Source: Planctomycetia bacterium (GTDB taxonomy: Bacteria > Planctomycetota > Planctomycetia > Pirellulales > UBA1268). Taken from it: a DNA stretch of 35,887 nucleotides. The translations under genes were made by a program, and so were the position numbers. The DNA is taken from NCBI GenBank assembly GCA_026401075.1, contig JAPLNQ010000101.1, forward strand, positions 1 through 35,887, written 5' to 3'. The notes under the pieces were generated by a model. That model was not told where the DNA came from. It searched no databases and saw only the letters and a program-made list of their open reading frames with translations. Below, in pieces: positions 7,301 through 35,887 of this stretch (its first letter is position 1; each line of letters begins with the position of its first letter).

Positions 7301-9219
7301 CGCCGAACGGCGAGGTGTTGACCGACATCCGGTGCGGCTCCCTCTCAGCCAACCACGGCACGGAGCAGAAGATCAGCCGCTACGTGCCCGACGGCAAGGG
7401 CGGGTATGACATTCGTTGGCGTATCGGTCGCTCCGCGAACATCCGGGCCTCGCGTGACGGATTCGTCGGGTCCATTCAGATGACCGAGCCGATGCACGGA
7501 CTTATCGGCGTCGTGGATCAGTCGCGGGCGGGAGTGCAGGTGTTCACCGCGGACGAGGGGCTCTATGTCGACACGCTGCTGCTCGACGGCAGCTTCAACA
7601 AGCAGACGATCTACGGCGTTCCGGGCGAGTTTTTCAGCGGCGATGGCTTTCTGAACAACGAGACCGGCAAGGTCTCCATCAAGTGGGGCAAGCACACGCC
7701 GATCCTATTCGAGGCTGTCGGCTGGACGAAGGATCTTGCGATTCGACGCATCGCCGGACTGCCGAAGGAAGTCACGCTCACGGCGGCGCAGACGGCACCG
7801 CCTCCGCCGATGGCGATGGTGGTGCGGGGCGGCGCGGGAAAGGCGCCCTATGCGCGGTTTCAGCCCTCGCCGGGCGGGCCACCGGCCCTCGATGGGGCAA
7901 TCGACGGCTGGGAATCGTGCGAGGCCATCACCTTCGGTGAGGGAGAGTGCAAGGTCGAGGTCCGGGGGATGTATGACCTTGATCACCTCTATCTCCGCTG
8001 GCATGTCAGGAGCGACGCACCGATCCGGGTCAGGCCGCTTGAGCAGGCGGACCGGCTGTTTACGCACGACCGCGGCGCGGACACGCTCGGCGTTTATTTT
8101 CAGGGCAGCCCATCCGCGACTGGCAAGACTCCCGAGGGCAGGCCTGGCGATCTGCGGCTGGTGTTCGGCCTGTTCGACGACGCTGGGAAGACCGTTCCGG
8201 CGGCGCTGGCGATGGTTCCGTCTTGGAACGTGCCGGGAGCGCATCCTGTCACGTACGGTTCGCCCGTCGGCAAGACGTCGCTCGCACACGTCGCCCTCGC
8301 GACACAGGTGCGGCTCGCCCACCGACTCGACGCCGACGGCAAGGGGCTGACGCTCGCCGCCGCGATCCCCCGCTCCGTCCTCCCCGCGGAGACGCCCGAT
8401 TGGAGCGAGGGACTTCGCACGACGATCGACTTCGACGCCAACTTTGGCGGCAATCGCAAAATCTGGTGGTCGAATGCCGACGGCTCCGCGAGCCGCGAGA
8501 CCAACGACGAGCCGACCGAGGCGCGGCTCTATCCAGGGGCGTGGGGGCCGCTTGAACTCGCCGCGCTCTCCCGCGGGCTGTATGTCCGCCAGTGGCAGGT
8601 CATCGGACCATTTGGTTTTGGAAAGCTGCCGCAACTCGATGTGCGTTCGGGTCGCGGTCAGATTTGCGCGACGCTCGCCGACCTGAAGTTTCCACCCGAA
8701 CTGCAGGGAGACGCTCGGGACGGCGGTTCTGCCGCCGTGCTTGTGCGGCGGGATCTCTCCGGGCGCTACGAAGGCGACATGGCTCGAACGCGGAAGATGA
8801 ATCGTGTGCTCACATGGATGCCAGTGACGATCACCGAGGACGAGGTGGATTTCAGGAAAATCGCGCGGCTCAAGTGGACCATGCATGACGAGGAGGGCGT
8901 CGCGTACATGGTGACGTGGATTCACGCGGCCGATGCGTCTGACGTCACCCTCACGATCCCCGAAGTGCACGGTCACCGTGCCGTTCGCGGCTGGTTCAAC
9001 GGCGACCCGCTGCCGGCGACCCTCGGCGAGGGGAAGCGGGCCGCGGATCTGCGGCAGCGGATCGATTCCTCGCGGCCGATGTCGCTCAGGAAGGGCTGGA
9101 ACGAGCTCCTGATCCGTGTCGATCACATCTGGGGTGATTCTGCGATCACGGTGAGGCTCGACGCCCCCGCCACGACATTGTGGAAGCTGCGGACGAGCAA
9201 TGAGCAGCCGGAAGAGTGA
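4357..9219 (+). CDS. Exported multidomain protein: SGNH-like hydrolase, FlgD-like, beta-propeller, DOMON-like
   Basis: This is a 1620-residue protein with a clear signal peptide (MRMPWLVLVVVAAICGLPCLA). Residues about 35-240 look SGNH/GDSL-hydrolase-like: Ser41 in VTAHSFHIFV, and Asp230/His234 in FTDPIGHAKAP arranged as the Asp-x-x-x-His dyad. Residues 294-318 are five tandem pentapeptides forming a linker. About 338-430 resembles a FlgD-type Ig-like module (DTWDGLDDNFMPAPPGGYGV). About 480-1115 is a propeller-like region with an NHL-type strand (GRIYVADPAANHVFVFNSNG). About 1172-1405 resembles a DOMON/CBM9-like carbohydrate-binding module (LDGAIDGWE...LRWHV). The end is a beta-sandwich with KGWNELLIRVDH. 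An esterase or deacetylase acting on polymeric carbohydrate outside the cell is inferred. The start has no strong Shine-Dalgarno. The next gene follows after 48 nt, so co-transcription is likely. Confidence 0.6.
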   Translation: MRMPWLVLVVVAAICGLPCLAAETPGPAPVAGQRVFVTAHSFHIFVAERLAPLARAAGITGHELVGKQMLGASRVQQHWDLADRMNPAKKALVAGDVDVLTMSPNWMVPDDGIALFTELGLKHNPQLRGLVQISWPAFDHWEPTGNPALWNPAKKINHNEERDARPLDGPREANAQVRAVIEKQVAALNAKYGRDVIHIVPVGDAVLRLRERVAAGNVPGIKRQSELFTDPIGHAKAPVMALATYCNFACIYGRSPVGLDDGDRELDRIDPSLRRVLQEIAWDAVTSHPMSGVTKDGLTKDSPAKESPRKEGVPKDNAGRSSSPTSVDSSSSTPATGVPITYTLPTDGPLPKTYRVTLAITDTSAPDWIVSSFLSGEPRTVTAENKGHFTDTWDGLDDNFMPAPPGGYGVKGIFLPAEIWPVDGNSHTLTAKLAGGPFAFLPRPDQDMQPPKVHGDPVNSPPGDVATFGESAVFTWTYLENGTNNFVLDLTKPVGLDQIVGSFNSGGAAGGPWTATDGSGVWTVGEDFGRSFIYKAQGKWGPDRAMYREGVVLLDGVACGLAASRESDRSFVYVAEAAKVEMKGKDRAGRDVWTEGESRIDRVTVLDGENGKKLAAVDLPSPVAITVRNGTLFALQQSGDTFALRSLKLAQGLPTGEWSVPIVLSGVKAPADVDVDSSGRIYVADPAANHVFVFNSNGKSLRTIGKADSQRPGHYDRLTMMSPRRVSCWNDGKRDLAIVMEGEGPGRFAEWSAEGELVREWQGLVPHANNGYAEDPAHPDHIYIQGHGEYLLRFVVANDTGMWTLDAVWPHVTGDLGKTWRGEGSFPRMIRRDGRLYLAYGRGLSVYRFDGDRCLASAAIVLKVDGKNRNYFAWHDANGDGTMQDGEVSAEKIEVPRGVFGYHGDGWQHDFSLLCPGEGTRDIWRLAPESFDAHGNPVFARFTKLLADPIMAAKAAGNAPAVRGGNEVSDTINSAWRRVVLTPNGEVLTDIRCGSLSANHGTEQKISRYVPDGKGGYDIRWRIGRSANIRASRDGFVGSIQMTEPMHGLIGVVDQSRAGVQVFTADEGLYVDTLLLDGSFNKQTIYGVPGEFFSGDGFLNNETGKVSIKWGKHTPILFEAVGWTKDLAIRRIAGLPKEVTLTAAQTAPPPPMAMVVRGGAGKAPYARFQPSPGGPPALDGAIDGWESCEAITFGEGECKVEVRGMYDLDHLYLRWHVRSDAPIRVRPLEQADRLFTHDRGADTLGVYFQGSPSATGKTPEGRPGDLRLVFGLFDDAGKTVPAALAMVPSWNVPGAHPVTYGSPVGKTSLAHVALATQVRLAHRLDADGKGLTLAAAIPRSVLPAETPDWSEGLRTTIDFDANFGGNRKIWWSNADGSASRETNDEPTEARLYPGAWGPLELAALSRGLYVRQWQVIGPFGFGKLPQLDVRSGRGQICATLADLKFPPELQGDARDGGSAAVLVRRDLSGRYEGDMARTRKMNRVLTWMPVTITEDEVDFRKIARLKWTMHDEEGVAYMVTWIHAADASDVTLTIPEVHGHRAVRGWFNGDPLPATLGEGKRAADLRQRIDSSRPMSLRKGWNELLIRVDHIWGDSAITVRLDAPATTLWKLRTSNEQPEE
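5236..5310 (+). repeat. Five tandem 15-bp units encoding x-K-[D/E]-x-x linker pentapeptides
   Basis: The units begin at 5236, 5251, 5266, 5281 and 5296 and translate TKDGL, TKDSP, AKESP, RKEGV and PKDNA. Each carries the core AAAGA at the same position. They lie exactly between the SGNH-like and FlgD-like domains and are followed by a Ser/Thr-rich stretch, so they extend a flexible charged inter-domain linker. Confidence 0.85.
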
Positions 9220-9267
9220 TCTGTTCCGCACGGTCGCCTTGAGCGGCCCCCGAAGAAGAGGTGTGTC

Positions 9268-10578
9268 GTGGCCGGGATCCAGCGTCCGTTTTCTTTCCGG
9301 GCCATAGGCATCGCCCTGCTCTGCGGGGCCGCGCTGCTCGCGGAAGAGCCAGCCACAACCACGATCGTCCCCGCGCCGGAACTGCCCGCATCGCTCCCGT
9401 GGGACCTGGCCACGCTCAGTCAGCCGCCAGCAGTCGAATGGCTCGACGAAACCTCGCCAGTGCGGTCGCTGCTCTACGCAGGCGAGCCGTTCGAAGGGCA
9501 TGCCACGCGGGTGTTCGCGTATTACGCCACGCCGGCGAGTGTCGCTGGCGGTGGCGATGCGGGCCAGGCCGCCGCGGCCACGACCAAGGGCCCCTGGCCC
9601 GGTGTCGTGCTCGTGCACGGCGGTGGCGGAACGGCGTTTGCCGAATGGGTGACGCTCTGGGCGAAGCAGGGCTATGCCGCGATCGCGATGGACCTCGCCG
9701 GTAGCCGGCCAGACCCTGCGGGCACGAAGAAGAACGCCGTCATCCGTATGGCCGATGGTGGGCCGGGGCAGGAACACAAGAACAAGTTCGACACGATCGC
9801 CACGCCTGAGACAAGTGATGACTGGCCCTACCATGCCGTGGCCAATTGTGTCCGCGCGCACTCGCTGCTACGGAGTTTCCCTGACGTCGATCGCAGCCGC
9901 ACGGCTATCACCGGGATCAGTTGGGGCGGCTACACCACCTGCCTCGTCGCGTCACTCGACAACCGCTTCCGCGCGGCGGTGCCCGTCTACGGCTGCGGCC
10001 ACCTCAGCGACAACAGCTGCTGGCTCGGCGATTTTGAGCGGATCGGCCCCGAGCAGTCGACGCGATGGACAAAGCTCTATGATCCCGGCAGCTATCTGCC
10101 TGCCTGCCGCGTGCCGATCTTCTTCGTGAACGGCACCAACGACTTCGCCTATCCGCTCGACAGCTATGGAAAGAGCTATGCCGATGTGCCGCAGGCGACC
10201 AAGAACATCCGCATCCAGGTGAACATGCCACACGGTCACGAGGCGGGCTGGGCGCCGAAAGAAATCGCCGCCTTCATCGATGCGACGCTGCTCGGTGCAC
10301 CCGGCCTGCCCGTGGTCGGCACGCCGACTGTCGATGAGCGTGGCACGCGGTGCCGCGTCACGGCCGGTGGGCCGGTCGCGTCGGCCGTATTCGTCTCGAC
10401 GGCCGAGCCGGGGCCGATCAACAAACTCACCTGGCAGACCGTACCAGCGGAGGTCGACGCAGACGGCACGCTCGCGGCTCCAAAGCCGCCGGCCGATACG
10501 CGGGCCTATTTCTTCACGGCCACGACCCCCGCCGGGCTCCAGGTGAGTTCGCCGGTGGTCATCGTGCCTGATCGGTGA
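9268..10578 (+). CDS. Exported alpha/beta hydrolase (acetyl-xylan-esterase / dienelactone-hydrolase-like)
   Basis: This is a 436-residue protein starting at GTG with a purine-rich GAAGAAGAGG 6 nt upstream. The N-terminus AIGIALLCGAALLAEEP is a signal peptide. The alpha/beta-hydrolase triad is readable: Ser218 in the nucleophile elbow GISWGG, Asp292 in NGTNDFAYP, and His324 (or His322) in MPHGHEAGW. The oxyanion strand HGGGGTAFAEWV lies near residue 115. A C-terminal Ig-like beta domain (about 340-436) follows. The fold and spacing fit AXE1/prolyl-oligopeptidase-type esterases, so an extracellular ester hydrolase acting on substituted polysaccharide is likely; the exact substrate cannot be read. 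It sits 48 nt downstream of the 1620-residue gene, and its TGA is followed directly by the leuB promoter. Confidence 0.7.
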   Translation: MAGIQRPFSFRAIGIALLCGAALLAEEPATTTIVPAPELPASLPWDLATLSQPPAVEWLDETSPVRSLLYAGEPFEGHATRVFAYYATPASVAGGGDAGQAAAATTKGPWPGVVLVHGGGGTAFAEWVTLWAKQGYAAIAMDLAGSRPDPAGTKKNAVIRMADGGPGQEHKNKFDTIATPETSDDWPYHAVANCVRAHSLLRSFPDVDRSRTAITGISWGGYTTCLVASLDNRFRAAVPVYGCGHLSDNSCWLGDFERIGPEQSTRWTKLYDPGSYLPACRVPIFFVNGTNDFAYPLDSYGKSYADVPQATKNIRIQVNMPHGHEAGWAPKEIAAFIDATLLGAPGLPVVGTPTVDERGTRCRVTAGGPVASAVFVSTAEPGPINKLTWQTVPAEVDADGTLAAPKPPADTRAYFFTATTPAGLQVSSPVVIVPDR

Positions 10579-10588
10579 CGCTGCCCTC

Positions 10589-10616
10589 TTGCGATGGGCC
10601 GGACATGGCCTATCAT
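10589..10616 (+). promoter_or_regulatory. Predicted leuB promoter (leaderless transcript)
   Basis: TTGCGA (10589-10594), 16-nt spacer, TATCAT (10611-10616). Only CCGGCC separates the -10 from the leuB ATG at 10623, so the transcript should begin at or within one base of the start codon. No Shine-Dalgarno is visible, as expected for a leaderless mRNA. Confidence 0.5.
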
Positions 10617-10622
10617 CCGGCC

Positions 10623-11717
10623 ATGAACATCACCATCGCTGTGCTCCCTGGCGACTACATCGGCCCCGAGGTCATGGCCGTCGCCCTCCCGATCCTCGAG
10701 ACCGTACTCCGGAAGTCGGGGCATACGCTCGAGCATTCGACCCACGACGTGGGCGGCGCCGGCATCGACCGGCACGGCAAAGCTCTCCCCGACTCCACCC
10801 TCGCGGCCTGCCGGGCGGCCGATGCAATTCTCTTCGGATCGGTTGGCGGGCCGAAGTGGGAAAAGCTGCCTCCGCAGGAGCAGCCTGAGCGGGCGTCGCT
10901 CCTGCCGTTGCGGAAGCATTTCCGTCTGTTCGCGAACGTGCGGCCTGGCCTGCTCTTGAAGAATCTCGTCGACACCTCGCCGCTGCGGCCGGACCGCATC
11001 CCCGACGGCGTCGACATGGTCTGCATCCGCGAACTCACCGGCGGCCTCTACTTCGGGGCCAAATCAACCAGGGAGATCGAAGGGGGCGACATCGAGGCGA
11101 TCGACACGATGGTCTACCGCCGCTCGGAGATCGAGCGGATCACTGACGTCGCCATCGCGACCGCCCGGGCGCGGCGCAGGCACATCACGCTGGTCGACAA
11201 GGCCAACGTGCTCGAGACGTCGGTCCTGTGGCGGAAGGTAGTCGGCGAGCGGATCAAGGCCGTTGCCCCCGACGTCACGCTGGCGACGATGTATATCGAC
11301 AACGCGGCGATGCAACTCGTGTTGCGCCCGTCGCAATTCGACGTCGTGCTCACCGAGAACATGTTCGGCGACATCCTGTCGGACGAGATGGCCGTGATCT
11401 GCGGCTCGCTCGGCATGATGGCCTCAGCGTCGCTCGGGCTCGACGAAAACCGGCACGGCAGGCCGTACGGCCTCTACGAGCCGTCTGGCGGCACAGCGCC
11501 CGACATCGCCGGCCAGGACAAGGCCAACCCCTGTGCGCAGGTGCTATCGGCCGCCCTCATGCTCCGCCACTCGTTCGGGCTGGAGGCCGAGGCGCGGGCG
11601 ATCGAATCGGCCGTGGAGCGGACGGTGGCCTCTTGGATACGCACCGCCGACATCGCCGGTGGCGGCCCGGCCGTGGGCACGAGGGCGATGGGCGAGGCGA
11701 TCCTCGCCCGGCTCTGA
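10623..11717 (+). CDS. leuB: 3-isopropylmalate dehydrogenase
   Basis: LeuB catalyses the NAD-dependent oxidative decarboxylation of 3-isopropylmalate in leucine biosynthesis, in the cytoplasm. At 364 residues it has the usual length. Family landmarks in order are VLPGDYIGPEV at the N-terminus, GSVGGPKW, the substrate-binding arginines in LFANVRPG, IRELTGGLYFG, the Mg-binding Asp in ENMFGDILSDE, and the NAD-binding GTAPDIAGQDKANP. I chose the ATG at 10623, giving MNITIAVLPG, rather than the upstream GTG at 10575 of the ORF track, because family proteins begin just before the GDYIGPE loop and a -10 box lies immediately upstream. It overlaps no neighbour. leuA, leuC and leuD are not in this window, so leuB stands alone among exported hydrolases. 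Confidence 0.93.
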   Translation: MNITIAVLPGDYIGPEVMAVALPILETVLRKSGHTLEHSTHDVGGAGIDRHGKALPDSTLAACRAADAILFGSVGGPKWEKLPPQEQPERASLLPLRKHFRLFANVRPGLLLKNLVDTSPLRPDRIPDGVDMVCIRELTGGLYFGAKSTREIEGGDIEAIDTMVYRRSEIERITDVAIATARARRRHITLVDKANVLETSVLWRKVVGERIKAVAPDVTLATMYIDNAAMQLVLRPSQFDVVLTENMFGDILSDEMAVICGSLGMMASASLGLDENRHGRPYGLYEPSGGTAPDIAGQDKANPCAQVLSAALMLRHSFGLEAEARAIESAVERTVASWIRTADIAGGGPAVGTRAMGEAILARL

Positions 11718-11719
11718 GC

Positions 11720-11745
11720 CGTGGCGGCAAGTTTTAAACTTGTCC
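11720..11745 (+). repeat. Palindromic intergenic element, form B
   Basis: CGTGGCGGC precedes the palindrome CAAGTT-TTA-AACTTG (11728-11742). It matches form B at 14358-14384 in the CGTGGC lead and AACTTG arm. It begins 3 nt after the leuB stop, so it could form a hairpin at the mRNA 3' end. Confidence 0.7.
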
Positions 11746-11761
11746 GTGTCTCGACGCGGAT

Positions 11762-11797
11762 TCCACAAGTTAAAAACTCGTGGCCACGGGTCGAACT
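11762..11797 (-). repeat. Palindromic intergenic element, form B, inverted copy (36-bp exact match to window end)
   Basis: TCCACAAGTTAAAAACTCGT and the following 16 bases are the exact reverse complement of 35852-35887. The element faces the form B copy at 11720-11745 head to head, so this locus carries an inverted pair in the leuB to esterase gap. Confidence 0.85.
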
Positions 11798-11820
11798 TCG
11801 TCGGCCACGTCGATCGAGTC

Positions 11821-11826
11821 TATGCT
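11821..11826 (+). promoter_or_regulatory. Candidate -10 element before the 11872 gene
   Basis: CTATGCTG contains TATGCT, about 45 nt upstream of ATG 11872 and just beyond the repeat pair. It fits the TANNNT pattern common in this window. There is no obvious -35. Confidence 0.3.
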
Positions 11827-11871
11827 GAATCCTTGCGAACGCCTTAGGCTGGCAGCATTCCAGGAGCGATC

Positions 11872-12975
11872 ATGAAGAGAGAACGACCACAGGCACATGA
11901 CGCCGTCGCGACCGACCGGCGTGGTTTCGTCGGCATGGCGGCCACGGGACTTGCGGCGGCAACGTTGGCGTCGCAGCCTGTGTCGAACGTTGCTGCGGCG
12001 GAGGCCACTGTGGCACAGCGTGAAAAGACGTTTCGTGATCACCTGCTCGAGTGCCTCGGCGGGCCGTGGCCCGAGGCCTGCCCGCTCAACGTTCGCTCGC
12101 GTGAGCCTGTCGAGTTTCGCGGGATGCGGATCGAGAGCGGTCGCAAGGACGGCTACCGCATTGAATCGATCGACTACGAAGTGGAGCCGGGCGACCGTGT
12201 GGCTGCGTTCGTGCTGATCCCGGACGGCGTCGATGCCGCTCACCCCGCGCCCGCCGTCGCGGTGTGGCACCAGCACGCCGGCGAATGGCACCTGGGCAAG
12301 AGCGAGCCGGCCGGTCTGGCCGGCAACCCGATGCACCACACCGGCGTGGCGCTGGCCAAGGAGGGCTACGTGGTGATCTGCCCCGACGCGCTCTGCTTCG
12401 AGGAGCGGCAGAGCCCGGTCCTCGAGAAGGGCAATTACGAACGGTTCGAGTTTCTGCGGCTCACCGTGGCGGGCCGCTGCATGGCCTGGAAAAACATCCT
12501 CGACATGCGGCGGGCGATCGACGTGCTCGCGGCAAGGCCCGAAGTCGACGCCAGCCGCATCGGCTGCTACGGACACTCGATGGGATCGACGCACACGTGG
12601 CTCGTGGGGCCGTGGGACGAGCGGCTCACGTGCCTCGTGGGCAACTGCTGTCTGCCCACCTACGCCGCGATCGAGCGGACCCACCTGCTCCACTGCTTCC
12701 CCAACTTCATCCCTGGCATCCATCAATACGGCGATACACCCGACATCGCCGCCCTGATCGCGCCGCGGCCGCTTCTGCTCAACTTCGGGGAGACCGACAA
12801 GGGGAGCCCGATCGAGGAGGTACGGACCGGCGTCGAACGGATCGGGACAGCGTATCGTGAGGCGGGGGTTCCGGACCGCTTCAGCTCGTTCATCGAGCCC
12901 GGCGTCGGTCATGTGCTCTCCGATGCGATGTGGCAACGCACCCGCGAGTGGCTCGCCCGTTATCTCAAGGCTTAG
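11872..12975 (+). CDS. Tat-exported alpha/beta hydrolase (acetyl-xylan-esterase-like)
   Basis: This is a 367-residue protein. The N-terminus contains a twin-arginine signal (DRRGFVGMAATGLAAATLA), so it is exported folded. AGGAG lies 5 nt before the ATG. The hydrolase triad is visible: Ser236 in CYGHSMGS, Asp309 in NFGETDKG, His347 in PGVGHVLS. The region VWHQHAGEWHLGKSEPAG matches planctomycete hydrolases that act on alkyl or acetyl esters, related to AXE1 and dienelactone hydrolase. The substrate is not readable. It follows leuB after a 154-nt gap filled by the palindromic repeats. bioA starts within 37-85 nt downstream, so the two may share a transcript, although their functions are not linked. 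Confidence 0.72.
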   Translation: MKRERPQAHDAVATDRRGFVGMAATGLAAATLASQPVSNVAAAEATVAQREKTFRDHLLECLGGPWPEACPLNVRSREPVEFRGMRIESGRKDGYRIESIDYEVEPGDRVAAFVLIPDGVDAAHPAPAVAVWHQHAGEWHLGKSEPAGLAGNPMHHTGVALAKEGYVVICPDALCFEERQSPVLEKGNYERFEFLRLTVAGRCMAWKNILDMRRAIDVLAARPEVDASRIGCYGHSMGSTHTWLVGPWDERLTCLVGNCCLPTYAAIERTHLLHCFPNFIPGIHQYGDTPDIAALIAPRPLLLNFGETDKGSPIEEVRTGVERIGTAYREAGVPDRFSSFIEPGVGHVLSDAMWQRTREWLARYLKA

Positions 12976-12984
12976 TCGCTCAGA

Positions 12985-13010
12985 GCGTAGTGGTATTGGC
13001 GTAGTGGCAT
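12985..13010 (+). repeat. Direct repeat before bioA
   Basis: GCGTAGTGGTAT (12985-12996) and GCGTAGTGGCAT (12999-13010) are 12-bp copies with one mismatch, 2 nt apart, ending 2 nt before the first possible bioA ATG. They could be a regulator site or a slippage duplication. They do not resemble the BirA operator. Confidence 0.5.
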
Positions 13011-13012
13011 AC

Positions 13013-14305
13013 ATGGCAACACCCCATCCCGTTCGGTCCCCTTCCCCAACAGTCGAGCCCATGCTTTCGGACCTCACGCTCTGGCGGCCGTATTGCCAGA
13101 TGAAAACGGCAGGGGAACCGCTGCACGTGGTCGCCGCGGAGGGATCGTGGCTCGAACTCGACTCGGGCCAGAAGATCATCGACGCCCTGTCGTCGTGGTG
13201 GACCGTCTGCCACGGCCATCGCCATCCGCACATCGTGGCGGCCATCGTGGATCAGGCCCACCGGCTGCCGCACGTGATGCTCGGCGGCATCGATCATCCG
13301 CAGGCCGTGCGGCTGGCGGATCGTCTCGCAGCGCTGATGCCCGGCAGCCTGAACCATTCGTTCTTCTGCGACTCCGGCTCCGTGGCCGTCGAAGTCGCCA
13401 TGAAGATGGCGGTGCAGTTCTGGATGAACCGGGGCGAGCCGGCTCGAAAGCGGTTCATCTGCCTGCGGCATTCCTACCACGGCGATACCAGCGGCGCGAT
13501 GAGCGTCTGCGATCCTGACGACAGCATGCACCGGCACTTCCGTGGGTTCCTGCTCGAGCAGTATCCGCGGGAGTTACCGACCGACGAGGAAGGCTGGCAG
13601 TCTTTCGCAGAGTTTCTCAAGGGTGTGGGCGGGCAGTGCGCCGGCGTCATCGTCGAGCCGCTCGTGCAGTGTGCGACCGGCATGCGGTTTCATTCGCCTG
13701 AACAGCTGCGGCGACTGGCGGAGGTCACGCGGGAGGCTGGGCTCCTGTTCATCGCCGATGAGATCGGGACGGGCTTTTGGCGGACCGGCAAACGGCTCGC
13801 CTGCGACTGGGCCGGCGTGGTGCCCGACATTCTCTGCCTCGGCAAGTCTCTTACTGGGGGCACGCTGCCGATGGCCGTGGCGATGGCGACCACGGAGGTC
13901 TTTGCCGCGTTTTACAGCGATCAGGCCGACCATGCCCTGATGCACGGGCCGACCTACATGGGCAATCCGCTCTGCTGTGCGGCAGCCAATGCGTCGCTCG
14001 ACCTCTTCGAACGGGAGCCTGTGGCGGAACGGGTGGCTGCGATCGAACAGATGGGCCGCGAGTGGCTCGAGCCGCTGGCCGCCCTCGGGCATGTGCGGGA
14101 GGTCCGCTGCCGCGGCGGCTTTCTCGCGGTCGAAACGGAGAAAGCATTCGATCGAAAGCAGCTTGCGCCCTCGATCGTCGAGTATTCCGTCTGGCTGCGG
14201 CCGATCGGCAATGTGATGTATGCCGTGCCGCCGTTCACGATCACGGCTGACGAACTGCGGCAGGTGATCGACGCGATGTCGGCCGCGGTGCGGGCGAATG
14301 CGTAG
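13013..14305 (+). CDS. bioA: Adenosylmethionine-8-amino-7-oxononanoate aminotransferase
   Basis: BioA transfers an amino group from SAM to KAPA to give DAPA in biotin synthesis; it is PLP-dependent and cytoplasmic. Landmarks are LWRPYCQMK near the N-terminus (BioA-type LWHPFTQMK), SSWWTVCHGHRHP, FFCDSGSVAVEVAMKMA (PLP phosphate loop), YHGDTSGAMSVCD, the catalytic Asp in FIADEIGTGFWRTG, the Schiff-base Lys in LGKSLTGGTLPMA, and RPIGNVMYAVPP at the C-terminus, which distinguishes BioA from other class III aminotransferases. The start is either ATG 13013 or ATG 13061 (MLSDLTLWRP), the latter closer to typical family length. The ORF-track start at 12857 runs inside the upstream gene and is rejected. 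No other bio genes lie in the window. Confidence 0.92.
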   Translation: MATPHPVRSPSPTVEPMLSDLTLWRPYCQMKTAGEPLHVVAAEGSWLELDSGQKIIDALSSWWTVCHGHRHPHIVAAIVDQAHRLPHVMLGGIDHPQAVRLADRLAALMPGSLNHSFFCDSGSVAVEVAMKMAVQFWMNRGEPARKRFICLRHSYHGDTSGAMSVCDPDDSMHRHFRGFLLEQYPRELPTDEEGWQSFAEFLKGVGGQCAGVIVEPLVQCATGMRFHSPEQLRRLAEVTREAGLLFIADEIGTGFWRTGKRLACDWAGVVPDILCLGKSLTGGTLPMAVAMATTEVFAAFYSDQADHALMHGPTYMGNPLCCAAANASLDLFEREPVAERVAAIEQMGREWLEPLAALGHVREVRCRGGFLAVETEKAFDRKQLAPSIVEYSVWLRPIGNVMYAVPPFTITADELRQVIDAMSAAVRANA

Positions 14306-14321
14306 GCGGTGCCGGGAAACA

Positions 14322-14350
14322 ACAAGATGCAATCTTGTCGCCACGGGGAG
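14322..14350 (+). repeat. Palindromic intergenic element, form A
   Basis: ACAAGAT-GCA-ATCTTGT followed by CGCCACGGGGAG. It matches the copy at 35783-35811 with two substitutions and one indel. It lies in the gap between bioA (+) and the convergent 14407 gene (-). Confidence 0.8.
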
Positions 14351-14357
14351 TCTTTCA

Positions 14358-14384
14358 CGTGGCAGCGAGTTTGTAACTTGCTGA
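14358..14384 (+). repeat. Palindromic intergenic element, form B
   Basis: CGTGGCAGCGAGTTTGTAAC begins the copy. The hairpin GCGAGTT-TGT-AACTTGC (14365-14381) pairs with one G-T. It follows form A after a 7-nt spacer, giving the compact two-hairpin arrangement between convergent genes. Confidence 0.75.
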
Positions 14385-14406
14385 TGCCTGTCGCCACGCG
14401 CGGCGA

Positions 14407-15312
14407 CTAAAACACGTTGGGCACGAAGTGGCCGCCACGGCAGCGTTTGAGGTAGTCGAGCGCCGCCACCTGCCCGGTGGTCTCGAGGGCGTCGCGGTAG
14501 ACGGGGTCGTGAAAGCCCTCGATGTCGATGCTGCCCCGCCAGCCGTGGAGCCTGAGCGTGCTGATCAGGTCGGTCCAGTTGGTGTCGCCGAAGCCGGGGG
14601 TGCGGTGGTGGATGTATTGCACGCCGCCGCGGATCCCGTGCTCGCGGACCACGTCCCACAACACCGTCGCGTCCTTGCCGTGGATGTGCCAGATGCGGTG
14701 GCAGTAGCGGCGTAACTGCGGCAGTGGATCGACGAAGCTCACGATCTGGTGGCACGGCTCCCACTCGAGGCCGATTACCGGGCTCTGCACCTCGCCGAAG
14801 ATTGCCTCCCAGGCCTGCGGGGCATGGGCGATGTTGCGGTCGCCCGCTTCCCACGTGCCACGGGCCTCACAATTCTCAAAAGCCAGCCGCACCCCCTGCT
14901 CTTCCGCGCGGGCGGCGAGCGGTCGAAAGACCTCGCCGAATCGGCCGTATGACTCGGGCACCGGCCGGCCCGGAATCCGACCGGCGAAGCCCGACACGAT
15001 GTCGCAGCCGAAGCTGGCAGCGGCATCGATGAGCCGCTCCCAGTCGCGAACCGTCTCGGGACTCGTGAGCGGATTGCCGTAGACGCCGATGGCGCTCACG
15101 CGACGCGGCAGGTCGCCGCTCGCGACCGGGCATTCCTCGAGCACCCGCCGGACGGCGTCGGCCAGCCCGGAGAGATTGGCGTCGCCGACGCTCTTGCCGA
15201 AACTGATCTGGAAGGTTTCGAAGCCGAGCGGGAGGAGTTGGCGGATCACCTCTGCAGTGCGGTCGTGGGCGGGGACAAGCGTGCCGATGCGGATGTCGTC
15301 GTGGGCGTGCAT
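14407..15312 (-). CDS. Sugar-phosphate isomerase/epimerase-family protein (AP endonuclease family 2 fold)
   Basis: This is a 301-residue TIM-barrel protein. Starting at ATG 15312 gives MHAHDDIRIGTLVPAHDRT, the normal family N-terminus; the ORF-track start at 15495 adds an unrelated tail. Metal-binding-type residues are visible in ENCEARGTWE, GLEWEPCHQ, HIWHIHGKDA and DIEGFHDP, the order of Glu/Asp/His expected for xylose-isomerase-like epimerases. The likely role is interconversion of sugars or sugar derivatives in the cytoplasm; the substrate is unknown. It is convergent with bioA, with palindromes between, and divergent from the CopZ-N-like gene 78 nt away. A TACGCT sits 6 nt before the ATG, a possible leaderless promoter of low confidence. 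Confidence 0.72.
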   Translation of the reverse strand: MHAHDDIRIGTLVPAHDRTAEVIRQLLPLGFETFQISFGKSVGDANLSGLADAVRRVLEECPVASGDLPRRVSAIGVYGNPLTSPETVRDWERLIDAAASFGCDIVSGFAGRIPGRPVPESYGRFGEVFRPLAARAEEQGVRLAFENCEARGTWEAGDRNIAHAPQAWEAIFGEVQSPVIGLEWEPCHQIVSFVDPLPQLRRYCHRIWHIHGKDATVLWDVVREHGIRGGVQYIHHRTPGFGDTNWTDLISTLRLHGWRGSIDIEGFHDPVYRDALETTGQVAALDYLKRCRGGHFVPNVF

Positions 15313-15327
15313 GATGGAAGCGTAGGG

Positions 15328-15333
15328 TACAAT
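15328..15333 (+). promoter_or_regulatory. Candidate -10 element for the CopZ-N-like gene
   Basis: GGGTACAATCTC contains TACAAT. A start at about 15340 would leave about 51 nt before ATG 15391 but only about 9 nt before ATG 15349, which favours the later start. No clear -35. Confidence 0.4.
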
Positions 15334-15390
15334 CTCGTGAGCGGGAAGATGTGTGTTTGGACCCAGAGTGATCCTGAAGCCAGAGTGATC

Positions 15391-15837
15391 ATGAACAAGG
15401 CCTTCTGCAAGGAGCCCGATTCGAGCCTGCCGCCGCGGTGCCCCCGCTGCGGTGCGGACGGCCTGCCGGTAGCGCCGGAGACCCTGCGGGCCCACCTGGC
15501 CTCAGACGCAGCCGAGTCGCTCGGTGAGCCGGCCTACTGGTGCGTGACCGACGCCTGCCCCGTCGCCTACTTTGACCTTTTCGAACGGAGCGTGGATTCC
15601 GCCGCCGCCCATGGCCTCTACTGGCCAAAGGATCCCGCCGGGCCCCTCTGCTGCTGCCACGGCCTGAGCGTGGACGACGTCGACGCCGACCTTGCAGAGC
15701 CCGTGCCTTTGCGGGTGCGGGCGGTGGTGCAGAAGGCCGGCCAGCCCGATGCGGCCTGCACGACGAAGAGCCCCGACGGTCGCCCATGCGTGGCACGCGT
15801 CCAGCGGTACTACATGCGGCAGAAGCAGAAAGGCTGA
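15391..15837 (+). CDS. CopZ-N-like zinc-ribbon/[2Fe-2S]-binding protein
   Basis: This is a 148-residue protein from ATG 15391. It starts with a zinc ribbon (PPRCPRCGADGLPV), then has YWCVTDACPVAYF, then LCCCHGLSVDDVDAD, and ends with CTTKSPDGRPC. This Cys order matches the N-terminal half of Archaeoglobus CopZ and related BFD-like [2Fe-2S] proteins: CPxCG, a Cys pair before a Tyr-Phe strand, C-x-C-x-G, and a final C-x(8)-C. The C-terminal HMA copper-binding domain of CopZ is absent. A metal- or redox-sensing metallochaperone role is inferred; copper as partner is unproven. The start could also be ATG 15349, but the promoter position favours 15391. A perfect GCTGACC/GGTCAGC hairpin spans its stop codon. 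Confidence 0.62.
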   Translation: MNKAFCKEPDSSLPPRCPRCGADGLPVAPETLRAHLASDAAESLGEPAYWCVTDACPVAYFDLFERSVDSAAAHGLYWPKDPAGPLCCCHGLSVDDVDADLAEPVPLRVRAVVQKAGQPDAACTTKSPDGRPCVARVQRYYMRQKQKG

Positions 15838-15848
15838 CCCCGGTCAGC
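15833..15848 (+). terminator. GC-rich hairpin spanning the stop codon of the CopZ-N-like gene
   Basis: GCTGACC-CC-GGTCAGC forms a perfect 7-bp stem containing the TGA (15835-15837). There is no U-tract, so intrinsic termination is doubtful. It may act on the 21-nt gap to the next gene at 15859. Confidence 0.3.
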
Positions 15849-15858
15849 GTTCTATTCC

Positions 15859-16572
15859 ATGCGACTGCTGAGTTGGAACATCCACAAGGGGATCGGCGGC
15901 CGGGACCGGCGGTATTCGCTCGCGCGGATCATCGACTGCATCGAGGCGGAGAATCCCGACTTGATCTGCCTGCAGGAGGTGGACCGTCTCGTGTCGCGGA
16001 GCAGGCTCGATGATCAGCCCCGGCTGCTCGCCCGCTACTTCCGCGCGCATTCGGTGTTTCAGGCGAACGTGGCGGCTGGTGAAGGCGGCTACGGCAACCT
16101 CGTGCTGTCGCGATGGCCGGTGGAGAGCCGCCACCGGATTCTGCTGCGGCATGGCACGCGAAAGCCACGCGGTGCGCAGTTGCTTGTCATCGACAGTCCC
16201 GAGGGTCCACTGCACCTGGTGCACACGCATCTGGGGCTGGCGGAGCGGGAGCGGCACTGGCAGATGGACCGCCTGCTCGGCCACATGCTCTTCCGCTCGG
16301 CCGACAACCTACCGACGATGGTCGTGGGTGACTTCAACGATTGGCGCGACACACTCGCCGCTGCGAGCCTAGCCGCAAATGGCTTCGCGCAGGTGACCCA
16401 TCCGGCGGGAAAATTTCGGTCGTTCCCGGCATGGCTGGCGGTAGGGGCGCTCGACAAGGCATTCATTCGGGGCGCGATCGAGGTGCGTCAGGCGCGGATC
16501 GTGAAGACGAGCCTCTCGCATGTCGCCAGCGACCACCTGCCGCTGGTGATCGATTTTCACGTGGGATCGTGA
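15859..16572 (+). CDS. Endonuclease/exonuclease/phosphatase-family protein
   Basis: This is a 237-residue single-domain EEP-superfamily metallohydrolase with no signal peptide, so it is probably cytoplasmic. The catalytic motifs appear in order: LLSWNIHKGIGG (metal-binding Asn), LICLQEVDR (catalytic Glu), LVHTHLGLAERER (His), VVGDFNDWRD (Asp and Asn) and SHVASDHLPLVIDF (terminal Asp-His). Family members cleave phosphodiesters in nucleic acids or phosphoinositol lipids; the substrate cannot be told here. The ATG at 15859 gives the exact family N-terminus. It starts 21 nt after the CopZ-N-like gene and may share its transcript. It is convergent with the PfkB kinase, with a form A palindrome between the two stops. 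Confidence 0.82.
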   Translation: MRLLSWNIHKGIGGRDRRYSLARIIDCIEAENPDLICLQEVDRLVSRSRLDDQPRLLARYFRAHSVFQANVAAGEGGYGNLVLSRWPVESRHRILLRHGTRKPRGAQLLVIDSPEGPLHLVHTHLGLAERERHWQMDRLLGHMLFRSADNLPTMVVGDFNDWRDTLAAASLAANGFAQVTHPAGKFRSFPAWLAVGALDKAFIRGAIEVRQARIVKTSLSHVASDHLPLVIDFHVGS

Positions 16573-16582
16573 TCCTCTGTGG

Positions 16583-16603
16583 GGACAAGATTGCATCTTG
16601 TCC
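16583..16603. repeat. Palindromic intergenic element, form A, between convergent genes
   Basis: GGACAAGAT-TGC-ATCTTGTCC has a perfect 9-bp stem and 3-nt loop. It occupies the 40-nt gap between the EEP gene (+) and the PfkB gene (-), so it could act as a bidirectional 3'-end hairpin. It shares CAAGAT and ATCTTG with the other A copies but lacks their GCCACGGGG tail. Confidence 0.8.
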
Positions 16604-16612
16604 ATGCCGTCG

Positions 16613-17596
16613 TCACGAGGCGTTGGCCAGACGCAGCGTGTCGTCGAACGATCGTAGACCGGCGGTGGCGCCCAGACCCGTCACGCAGCAGGCAGCCGTG
16701 GCGGCGCCGAGCAGGCCAGCCTCGCGGAGTGGCATGCCTCGGAGGACTCCCGTGAGCAGACCGGCGAGGAACGAGTCGCCCGCGCCGGTCGTGTCGACGA
16801 CCGGACCAGGGGCGGCTACGCACGGAATATCGAAGACTTCGCCGACCGCGGGGCTCAGGAGCGTGCCCTGCGTGCCAAGTTTTACGCCGACGATACCCCC
16901 CGCTCCATGCCGTCGGTAGCAGTCGATGATCTCCTTCGGGTCGGAGAGCCCGGTCTGGTGGACGGCTTCGTCGAGGCTGGGCACATAGATGTCGACGTGT
17001 GGCAGGGCTGGCGCAAGTTGCGCGAGTGTGCCTCCGGAGCTACCGGTTTCGAGCGTGACGCGGCAGCCTGTCGCCTTGATGGTCGCGAGGGCGTCGGCCA
17101 GCACCGGCTCGAGGGAAGGCAAGAGTCCGAAATAGCCGACGAGCGCCATGCGGCTGTTGCCGAAGTGCGCAGCCTGCCGCTTGATGAAGGTGAGATCGAT
17201 GGCGTGCGGCGCGCCGACGTGATGGGCGAAGCTGCGTTCGCCGCTCGGATCGATCAGCACGGCGGTCGTGCTGGTGGCGAGCGTGGCGTGCGGTTCGAGC
17301 GCCGCGGTGTCGATCCCCTCGGCCGTGAGCCGCGATCGGACGACGCTACCCCAGAGATCGTCGCCCACCAGGCTCGACGCCGCCACGCGAAGTCCGAGCC
17401 GCTGCATGGCGGTGCCAGAGTTGCAGACGATGCCGCCGGTGGTCACCTCGATTGGCTCGACGTGAAATAGCCGGCCGGCACCGACCGGCTGCGTGAGCGG
17501 CACCGGTCGAACGAGGATGTCTGCCACGCAGGTACCGCAGACGATGCAATCGATCGCGTTGCCGTGTGACGAATCGCCGTGGGGTCTGCCGCTCAT
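16613..17596 (-). CDS. PfkB-family carbohydrate kinase
   Basis: This is a 327-residue protein of usual length. PfkB signatures are visible: TTGGIVCNSGTAMQRLG (substrate-side Gly-Gly and Asn), the GDDLWG loop, the acceptor-phosphate strand VVDTTGAGDSF with the catalytic Asp, and the following helix FLAGLLTG. It phosphorylates a sugar or nucleoside with ATP in the cytoplasm; ribokinase, fructokinase and related activities cannot be separated by reading. The N-terminal MSGRPHGDSSHG is short and polar, and the kinase proper begins at AIDCIVCGTCVADI. A TACAAT -10 candidate lies about 90 nt upstream. It is convergent with the EEP gene, and downstream of the LEPR-type gene on the same strand with a 148-nt gap. 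Confidence 0.85.
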   Translation of the reverse strand: MSGRPHGDSSHGNAIDCIVCGTCVADILVRPVPLTQPVGAGRLFHVEPIEVTTGGIVCNSGTAMQRLGLRVAASSLVGDDLWGSVVRSRLTAEGIDTAALEPHATLATSTTAVLIDPSGERSFAHHVGAPHAIDLTFIKRQAAHFGNSRMALVGYFGLLPSLEPVLADALATIKATGCRVTLETGSSGGTLAQLAPALPHVDIYVPSLDEAVHQTGLSDPKEIIDCYRRHGAGGIVGVKLGTQGTLLSPAVGEVFDIPCVAAPGPVVDTTGAGDSFLAGLLTGVLRGMPLREAGLLGAATAACCVTGLGATAGLRSFDDTLRLANAS

Positions 17597-17684
17597 GCCA
17601 ACGCCTTACCCGTCGAGTGGAGTCGCGTGGCGTTGCTGCTGGGAACGTTCTCCGGCACGCATCGCCACGCATCGGATGGGATCG

Positions 17685-17690
17685 ATTGTA
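17685..17690 (-). promoter_or_regulatory. Candidate -10 element for the PfkB gene, with upstream A-tract
   Basis: On the minus strand, GGGCTACAATCG carries TACAAT about 90 nt before ATG 17596. CTGAAAAAACATAA (17724-17737, minus) lies 34-47 nt upstream of it, in UP-element position. A near-identical tract precedes the PSD1 gene. Confidence 0.4.
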
Positions 17691-17744
17691 GCCCGTGCCC
17701 ATCGACGGCCTGGGGCCCAATCCTTATGTTTTTTCAGCCCCGGC

Positions 17745-20700
17745 TTACATGATGGGCGGGCGGACCGCAGATCGGCGACTTGGAGCCGTCGGTACGAGCG
17801 AGAACAGCTCGGGAGCCGGCATCACGGGGAGCGATCGCGACGAGGCAGCCGAACTTGTCGTGACGAGCCGAAACGCGAGGGCACGGCTGGCTGTGGAGAC
17901 GTTGCCCGCCACGTCGATCTGTCTGACACGGACCACATTCCGGCCCTCGGTGGGCGTGTAGTCGGTGCTCCATTGACTCCATCCGGCACGTTCTTCGAAC
18001 GAATACTCGACCATCGCGGTCCTCTCCACCCGTCGCACCGACAGGGAGGGGTCGCGGGTCACGATGGCATAGAGGTTGATGCCGGCCAGGCGGGCAGGCA
18101 TCACCTGCGGCGCCACCGGCCGCGAGCGATCGAGTGTGAAGCTGAATGTGGTGGTGGGCGAGATATTGTTGGCCGCATCGATCTGGCGGACATGCACGAT
18201 GTTGCGACCGGCCTTGGACTGGAAGACAGGGTTCCACCGCAGCCCGCCATTCGTTGAATACTGAGTCCTCGCCCCGGGTTCCGATGCGACCACCAGCCGC
18301 CCGTCGCTCGTGATGCGATCGCTGGCGCTGAGCCCCGTGTCGCGGACGAGGGCAACCTGCGGAGCCTTCGGCGGGATCACGTCGGCCGTGCCCGGATACG
18401 TCGCGATGTTCCATGCCGAGCAGATCTGCTTGAGGCTGTAGAGGCCGTAGTTGGCCAGCGGCACGCCACGGCCTTCGTTGCCGTCGACAAAGATCGCGGT
18501 GGTGGGATCGGTCGAGCCGAGCAGGCCGGAGGCCTTCGTCATGAACGAAAGGAAGTCGGGCAGTTGCCAGTAGCCGAAGAACGGCAGGTCCTGCCCCTTC
18601 TCGGCGCTGAACATGAACGTGATCCGATTTTCGAGGCCGGCCGGCACGTTGGGCGCCTGCCAGTCCATGGTGAGCTCCGTAAACTTCCAGCCGCTCGCGG
18701 TTGTGACGTCGATCGCCGGCCCCGTCACCGAGAGCGACGTGCCCGACGGCACAGTGTCCTGCACCTTCCAGTACGGCGCCGTGGCAGGCAGAAGGTCGCC
18801 CGTCTCCGTGACGGATGTGATCGCGGAGTATTGCTGGAGTTCGTCGAAATTCGTGCCGCTGCCGCTCATCGTCAGGTTGCCGCTGGTGCCCGACACCATG
18901 ATCGTCCCCTGCCCCGCGGCATAGGGCCAGTCGAGCAGGCTCCGCTGAAAATCGGTCGCCGCGTCGGCCGGCGATCGGGGCGTGGGTGTCTTGCCGTCGG
19001 TGGCCCCGTTGTCGGTCATCCAGCGAAAGTAGGAGCCGGCCGAGGGGTGGTCGGGCGGAGTCGGCTTATTCGGAGGAGTCGGCGGCGGTGCATTGCCAAC
19101 GTAGGCCTCCATGTAGGCCATCGACAGGATCGGCTCAGACACGCCCGGCCTCCACGACGGATACCCCTGGGCGTCGAGGTACGGTTTGATCGGCGTGTAG
19201 GGAACGAGGCCGGCGAGGTCGCCCGTCGCTGGAAAAGTCGCTGTATTCATCTTGGCGAGCGTGTGCGAGTCGACCTCGAGGGCCATGCCGACCCCGAGCG
19301 ACTTCGTCACGGGTGACTGCCGTTTGGCCCAATCGAGCCAGCACGCGACATTCTGGTAGGCCACCGATCCGATGTTGGGGCCTGCCGAGCCCTTCGTCAG
19401 TTCCGGGTCGATCGTGATGCTGGTGATCACACCCTGCGGCACCTCTGCATTGGCGAGCAGTGTGGAGAACCAGCTGAGCGCGCGGGGCAGGTTGGCCCAG
19501 TCGGCTGGCAGCTCGATCGAGGCAGGCTGGCCTGAGAGGAGCGGGGTCCAGCCCGTGTCGGCCGCGCCGCTGGCGGAGGCCGGAAAGCTGGATCGGTCGA
19601 TGAGAATCTCGAGCGGAACTTTCTTGGCCCCCGACAGCTTGGCGAACTGCGTGAGGAAGCCGACGAAGTTGGTCGTTTTTGTGCCAACGACCGCCGTTGC
19701 CGTCGGGTCGTAGAAGCTGTTCTTCAAAACATCTGGATCGGTGACGTAGAGCACGAGCTTCGAGGGCGGGTGGTCGGCGAGGTAGCCGAGCAGCCAGTTG
19801 TGGTAGCCGGCCAGGGACACGGCATCGGTCGCGCACTCGCGATAGTCCCACATCACGAACCGCCAGTCGTCGAAGGAGGCGGGGGCGGCAGTGACCGAAT
19901 GGGATGCGGTATTGACCCAGGTGGCGGGCAGCAGCTGGTACTGGAAGACGCAGATATTCGGCTGCACCGTCGCATTCCAGAAGGGCACGAACTCCTTCGT
20001 GAAGGTCTGGCAGAAGTCGACGAAGTCATCCACGCCGGCACCGGGGCCGCCCGCAGGGGCGTCCCAGGTGCCGAAGGCGTCGATCAGCGAGCCGCCCACA
20101 CCGAGCTTCTCGCAGCTGAACATCAGGTAGGTCCGCGACAGATCGGTTGGCATGTTGCCCGACGTGTGCGTGCCGACGAGGTAGCCGAAGGTGCTGGCGG
20201 GATCATCGACCGACGGCGTGCCCAGCACTTCCTGCACCGGATCGGCCGCATTGCGGGCGCGCGTGTAGATCGTGTCGGGGGCCGCGGGCGAGGGATTCGG
20301 GACGCTTGCAGTTGACGCGTAGGCATCGACATAGGTCGTGCCAGCGCCCACCTGCTTGTACATGTTGTAGAGCTCGCAGTAGGCCGCATCGAGGAGGCGG
20401 GTGTCGGGGTCGCCGACCGTCCAGGTTGCCATCTGCGCGAGATTGGTGAAGCCGTGTGAGAAGCCGCTGCCGACGAAGCCGGGGTCGGCATGCATCGTCG
20501 GCCAGAGCGTCTTCTGGTAGTCGCGGATGGCCTGCAGCGTCTGCGGATCGGCGGAAATCTGGCTCGACTCCGCTTCGATCGTCACCTCGCTGATCAGCAG
20601 CCTCGACCCGTTGGCCGTCAGCACGTCGTTGGCATGGTCGGCCCAGTAGTAGGCCTTCTCCCATTTGTTGTCGTCGGTGAACGTGCCCCCGGTCGGGTTC

Positions 20701-26702: not shown

Positions 26703-26783
26703 TGAAAAGGGGACGCAGCTCTTTTCTTCATCCGTGCGCTCCGTCTGGTGAAAGGTGAAGAAAAGAGCTGCGTCCCCTTTTCA
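26703..26783. repeat. 28-bp perfect inverted repeat (REP-like), 25-bp loop
   Basis: Arms 26703-26730 and 26756-26783 are exact reverse complements, beginning TGAAAAGGGGACGCAGCTC. The loop is TCCGTGCGCTCCGTCTGGTG plus 5 bases. The right arm begins with the TGA stop of the DUF1501 gene (on its strand), and the left arm meets the sialidase fragment. The shape resembles the REP/BIME elements mobilised by REP-associated tyrosine transposases; no such transposase gene is in the window. The arm length is unlike the other palindrome family here. Confidence 0.85.
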
Positions 26784-35765: not shown

Positions 35766-35780
35766 GACCAGGAGGGGCAC

Positions 35781-35811
35781 GGCAAGATGCGATCTTGCCG
35801 CCACGGGGGAG
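35781..35811 (+). repeat. Palindromic intergenic element, form A
   Basis: GGCAAGAT-GCG-ATCTTGCC followed by GCCACGGGGGAG. Stem 8 bp, loop 3. It begins 16 nt after the GGQ gene stop and repeats the 14322-14350 copy. Confidence 0.8.
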
Positions 35812-35851
35812 AAGGTTGAGGTTGTCTCGGCATGGAGGATGAGGCCGAAGG

Positions 35852-35887
35852 AGTTCGACCCGTGGCCACGAGTTTTTAACTTGTGGA
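35852..35887 (+). repeat. Palindromic intergenic element, form B (reaches window end)
   Basis: CGTGGCCACGAGTTTTTAAC with the palindrome ACGAGTT-TTT-AACTTGT. The 36 bases to the window edge are the exact reverse complement of 11762-11797. It follows form A after about 40 nt of spacer. The element may continue beyond the edge. Confidence 0.85.

Follow-up and report, generated by a model that had tools for sequence, protein, structure and literature searches.

What are the two small palindromes that stand side by side between convergent genes at 14322-14384 of this 35,887-nucleotide stretch of a Planctomycetia bacterium (hereafter the window), and what places similar palindromes just past the ends of other genes? 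An earlier note had described them as two hairpins, A and B, forming an intergenic element of unusual two-hairpin design, either a genome-wide REP-like repeat or a bidirectional 3'-end element. The palindromes are present at all four loci of the window to which that note assigned them. Read in one direction, B gives CGTGGC-NN-C[A/G]AGTT-NNN-AACTTG, and A gives CGTGG-NNN-CAAGAT-NNN-ATCTTG when the other strand is read; A and B are a single repeat in opposite orientations, not two designs. The repeat unit consists of a GTGG tag (usually CGTGG), a 9-bp stem and a 3-nt loop, and the family hairpin can be written as GTGG-CGGCAAGTT.

A search of the window with the pattern GTGG-NNN-CRAGWT-NNN-AWCTTG, allowing at most two mismatches, returns seven matches, at 11721, 14359, 16579 and 35862 on the forward strand and at 11766, 14323 and 35783 on the reverse strand. 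The corresponding copies, delimited by sequence and pattern match, are found in several arrangements. The first two make up a canonical tag-outward dimer: its left half (11721..11745, forward strand; tag GTGG 11721-11724, hairpin 11725-11745) begins 3 bp past the stop codon of a leuB-type Iso_dh gene, and its right half (11763..11787, reverse strand; hairpin 11763-11783, tag CCAC 11784-11787) is assigned by sub-type profile to the B-reverse subtype and is followed by a flank (11788..11811) that is repeated beside some other copies. Copies A (14320..14344, reverse strand; hairpin 14320-14340, tag CCAC 14341-14344) and B (14359..14383, forward strand; tag GTGG 14359-14362, hairpin 14363-14383) form a tag-inward pair in a convergent gene gap, and a single copy (16579..16603, forward strand; tag GTGG 16579-16582, hairpin 16583-16603) sits between convergent Exo_endo_phos and PfkB genes. 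Near the end of the window, a reverse-strand copy (35780..35804; hairpin 35780-35800, tag CCAC 35801-35804) is joined by a recurrent linker of about 55 nt, which carries its own GTCTCG...CGAGAC-type inverted repeat (35805..35861), to a forward-strand copy (35862..35886; tag GTGG 35862-35865, hairpin 35866-35886) that was located by pattern match and whose end was placed from the dimer structure. Complementarity between the arms 11762-11811 and 35838-35887 reaches 92% across 50 nt, and the window probably terminates inside a dimer at 35838-35887. The genes that precede the window copies are the leuB-type Iso_dh (tandem gap), a class-III aminotransferase (convergent), the Exo_endo_phos gene (convergent) and a doubtful 85-aa ORF.

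The conserved entity in these copies is the hairpin itself, as compensatory changes in its stem reveal. The GTGG directly 5' of the stem is nearly invariant across 278 copies that differ in their surroundings, a handful of them chance matches to tRNA-like sequence. For the analysis of the stem, we hand-picked 56 distinct copies from this set, almost exclusively from the genus, omitting chance matches and some decayed copies; standard pairs occupy 97.8% of their stem cells, a figure that leans high because the rows were selected. In the unselected set, the outermost stem pair is paired in 60% of copies and the remaining eight in 92-100%. Cells changed on both sides of the stem number 80 in the 56 copies, against 23.4 in shuffles, with none of 500 shuffles reaching 80, and sliding the pairing partners abolishes the signal. 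Compensatory changes occur at four of the nine stem pairs, including the T-A to A-T swap that constitutes the difference between B and A.

The source genome is a 4.16 Mb draft in 301 contigs, 92.8% complete and with 66% GC. Searching it with a 23-nt pattern and at most one mismatch yields about 447 copies (230 on one strand and 217 on the other), whereas the reversed-pattern control yields none on either strand, which excludes chance; the core of A (CAAGATGCNATCTTG) has 30 exact matches in the genome and none in the control. A draft this fragmented, in which several clusters of copies lie at the ends of contigs or of the analyzed stretches, could in principle owe such a family to misassembled repeats or to contamination, but separately assembled genomes, those of four congeners and of six other planctomycetes, carry the family as well, and different species share some copies at orthologous sites (C27:24491 and C289:4671), so that we deem an assembly or binning artifact exceedingly improbable. 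The position of these clusters near contig ends indicates that the repeat probably breaks the draft assembly.

To analyze the context of the copies, we used a 756 kb sample (22 contigs, about 18% of the genome) in which genes were called with a home-made hexamer caller, with 85% of the sequence coding. All contigs other than the window were picked for holding copies, and hence the density of copies in the sample is biased, while their placement in genes versus gaps should not be. The sample contains 114 copies, which group into 53 clusters. The commonest cluster is a tag-outward pair, with a spacing of 46 or 47 bp between the forward and reverse copies in 26 cases, and same-orientation tandem copies occur at a spacing of 40 or 41 bp in 13 cases. 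Tag-inward pairs, such as the one at 14322, are the rarer arrangement, and the "A then B" design of the earlier note thus does not survive as a description of the family. The consensus dimer folds as one long hairpin (z = -6.1); for the window dimer at 11718-11791 the fold has z = -5.1. In about one third of the clusters that have a B-reverse copy, the linker of about 55 nt joins two REP copies, and other palindrome families (GGGGACGGGAGCGA, GGGGACGCAGCTC) adjoin or interrupt some copies.

This anatomy places the family among known repeats. The published rule for GTRG-tagged REPs calls for a GTAG or GTGG tetranucleotide 0-2 nt from a basal stem of 7-20 bp closed by a loop of 2-5 nt, and the REP consensus admits GTGG (PMC6006769); here GTGG adjoins a 9-bp stem with a 3-nt loop, and the copies are numerous and mainly intergenic. 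The inverse pairs with a spacer of the REPIN/BIME type, often in tandem, are likewise present, as the 46-47 bp dimers and the 40-41 bp units. The GTAG superfamily includes GTGG variants, such as GTAG-20 of O. terrae, and has stems mostly of 6-9 bp (PMC3733652). The family shares with these GTAG-tagged REPs a short tag left unpaired at the base of the stem, inverted dimers and a location in convergent or unidirectional gaps near stops, but GTGG is the rule in it and a variant there. CGTC-tagged REPs (PMC3733652) resemble it in the occurrence of 9-bp stems and in lacking a dedicated flanking transposase despite genomic RAYTs, yet their defining features are a CGTC, TGTC or CCTC tag, an AT in the first two pairs of the stem and a 4-5 nt loop, none of which is found here, where the tag is GTGG, the loop has 3 nt and the first two stem positions have no AT. 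The E. coli REP/BIME system with its TnpA-REP (PMC8266576) likewise combines tag and hairpin in paired or tandem intergenic copies, from which the present family differs in having no stem bulge and no REPtron found. The family is a new addition to the GTRG-tagged REP/REPIN kind, with GTGG as a recorded variant of the GTAG tag. No Rfam family matched in the window, and a literature search, with most subscription papers outside its scope, found no published account of this repeat family, no planctomycete REP family with a matching stem-loop and nothing relevant on Gemmata palindromes.

The REPINs of Pseudomonas are made of two inverted REP hairpins with their GTAG tags facing outward. The present family is also built of two inverted REP hairpins with tags outward, and differs in its GTGG tag, in the lack of a detected flanking RAYT, in its planctomycete host and in its frequent 41-bp tandem extensions. 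In the Pseudomonas account (PMC3116915), REPINs are further similar in numbering hundreds of copies, in being intergenic and in being mobile between closely related genomes.

The placement of the clusters lends substance to the earlier proposal of a genome-wide REP-like element past gene 3' ends. In the 756 kb sample, none of the 53 clusters overlaps a predicted gene, and in the genome as a whole copies are far above chance. The association with 3' ends that the note had suggested examining is also apparent: convergent gaps hold 20 of the 41 classifiable clusters against 5.4 expected by base count (p = 3e-8), clusters lie at a median of 26 bp from a flanking stop, as against 112 bp from a flanking start, and 13 of the 16 clusters in tandem gaps lie closer to the stop. 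Divergent gaps hold five of the 41 clusters against 13.7 expected by base count (p = 0.002); when gaps are counted by number and not by bases, the convergent excess persists but the divergent deficit vanishes (p = 0.67). The claim that the element occurs only beyond gene 3' ends accordingly stands as a strong bias and falls as a rule, given the five clusters in divergent gaps. Known REPs have a like preference for convergent or unidirectional gaps near stops (Di Nocera et al., PMC3733652).

Such a bias toward 3' ends and convergent gaps could also be produced by a functional bidirectional 3'-end signal, a terminator or mRNA stabilizer maintained by the host at convergent ends, and the stable hairpins with stems kept by compensatory change, together with reports that other REPs are transcribed and thought to affect mRNA (PMC3733652), agree with that function. 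We nonetheless find it improbable. A TTTT run follows the stem in only two of the 114 copies and a terminator scan of 9000-18000 picks up no copy, leaving nearly all copies without the T-run of an intrinsic terminator and intrinsic termination unlikely; copy number ranges from 2 to 447 within a single genus; and in the congener G002 the family is missing at 15 of 20 orthologous sites, seven of which have merely 4-33 bp between conserved flanks. The bidirectional 3'-end function put forward in the earlier note is therefore not borne out. Modest effects on mRNA decay or on Rho-dependent ends are possible, though they would be secondary.

The same comparison establishes the family as a mobile one. 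Several other empty sites of G002 have the gap filled by another palindrome family, and at the five sites where the family is kept, two copies are preserved nearly letter for letter. In both convergent gaps of the window (the 14322 pair and the 16579 copy) the element is absent from all four congeners (G001-G004): the gaps are short in G002 and G003, one is short and the other holds unrelated sequence in G004, and in G001 a different palindrome family is present instead. For the 16579..16603 copy, three congeners have an empty site. Presence and absence among close relatives, as in REPINs mobilized by RAYTs, is thus evident, and the empty orthologous sites imply a mobile and dispensable element and not a fixed signal of gene 3' ends. 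Its gain or loss is rapid, and gene ends manage without it; such 3'-end hairpins should not be taken as conserved terminators. Neither a target duplication nor a fixed target is evident at the empty orthologous sites in the G002 comparison. As separate observations, the G001 ortholog of window 14304-14406 (loci L170 and L173) has its convergent gap occupied by the unrelated palindrome family CAAGCCCGACGCGCCAGCGAGGGA, and G002 has a divergent Y1_Tnp gene next to similar repeats. CCGTGG at two empty sites of G002 might be a scar, although that is a common word at 66% GC.

Beyond the source genome the family is patchily distributed. Five genomes of the genus have 447, 16, 53, 2 and 52 copies. Outside the genus, no more than one or two loose matches, several resembling tRNAs, turn up in any of 94 relatives from the same family and order, with a single exact, dimer-like copy in one member of the same family (G032). 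Among 398 genomes of the class, six belonging to a different family and order (f23) have 5-42 exact copies with the same tag, tag-outward dimers and a loop that is usually TCC. The carrier records that bear names are planctomycete MAGs from freshwater and groundwater, one of which has the title Kuenenia. This patchy spread suggests horizontal spread or repeated loss.

The identity of the enzyme that moves these copies was addressed by examining the Y1_Tnp loci of the ten carrier genomes and of G003. At none of these 45 loci in draft genomes, a count that leaves out nine weak Y1_Tnp matches in G281, do copies of the family lie within about 1.5 kb of the gene, as they would in a REPtron; at six of the loci the gene has GTAG or GTGG hairpins of other kinds next to it, a GTGG hairpin at L272 among them. 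The family is an orphan without a cognate RAYT, provisionally so because the gene might lie in one of the gaps that repeats leave in an assembly. The two RAYT-type Y1_Tnp genes of the source genome (L031, 1200-2060; L032, 1390-2190) were considered as cognate enzymes and set aside, their flanks carrying GGGGACGGGAGCGA and GGTGCCTGGCACC palindromes instead; each lies between palindromes of its own (ATGGGGACGGGAGCGAATTT; AACGGTGCCTGGCACC), and one of the two stands directly after a tRNA-like sequence. The divergent Y1_Tnp genes of G002 are accompanied by GCGACGGGATCTC- or AAGCCCGAAGCGC-type repeats, and a AAGCCCGAAGCGC-type repeat also occupies orthologous gaps in G001. Palindromic direct-repeat clusters of about 60-100 bp lie on both sides of divergent Y1_Tnp genes at L166 and L167 of G002. 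At L272 (G313), several hairpins with a GTGG tag (GTGGCTGGCCTCTTTGAGGCC) flank the Y1_Tnp gene; this genome has 39 copies of the family, and the gene is a candidate for trans mobilization.

The absence of a RAYT association, together with the inverted ends of the dimer and the conserved repeated flank of many copies, might point instead to a MITE or BIME fragment moved by a DDE transposase through its outer inverted ends (CCCGTGGC/GCCACGGG), without any RAYT. Singlets, 41-bp tandem arrays and tag-inward pairs nevertheless occur, target duplications are not seen at empty sites, the tag-stem-loop anatomy agrees with that of REPs, and ORFs between nearby clusters, considered as possible transposases, look housekeeping when their translations are read by eye. 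We judge movement by a DDE transposase very improbable.

We are largely confident that the family is a GTRG-tagged REP, usually deployed as a tag-outward REPIN, and a non-autonomous miniature mobile element for which trans mobilization of the RAYT type is most likely. Single-strand transposition and the enzyme itself are the parts of this explanation that we infer, from the GTRG anatomy and from TnpA-REP cleavage data, in which the tag acts as a guide and a change from GTAG to GTGG permits cleavage at CC (PMC8266576). Under this model, an HUH tyrosine transposase of the RAYT/TnpA-REP class would act in trans, binding the hairpin on single-stranded DNA, with the tag serving as guide sequence for cleavage and the freed piece being joined elsewhere. 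The tag-outward REPIN, with a spacing of about 46 bp between its copies and with tandem expansions of 41 bp, would be the usual unit of spread, and purifying selection would then keep copies at the least harmful places, past stops and above all in convergent gaps. It is possible, if on balance doubtful, that an expansion to more than 400 copies took place without a RAYT of its own, through trans mobilization (for example by an L272-like GTGG RAYT) or a non-RAYT enzyme, with horizontal transfer between two planctomycete orders. The C-run before the tag is conserved in the source genome and not kept in the other planctomycete family; a CC beside the tag, suggestive as a cleavage signature in the source genome, was dropped on that account.

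What is notable in this family is its orphan status combined with the recent expansion of an abundant, mobile repeat. Through it, the range of REPIN-type mobile repeats comes to include a large, recent planctomycete expansion, in which sites are empty in congeners and one and the same convergent gap can be filled by different palindrome families. REP families that lack a transposase, the CGTC class among them, are a persistent puzzle, and the difference between some 450 copies here and 2-53 in congeners makes trans mobilization directly testable. A different inverted repeat of the window, at 26703-26783 (TGAAAAGGGGACGCAGCTCTTTTCTTCA), is perfect over 28 bp and has its arms 25 nt apart; it resembles RAYT-associated terminal repeats, and the 756 kb sample contains its core 13 times.
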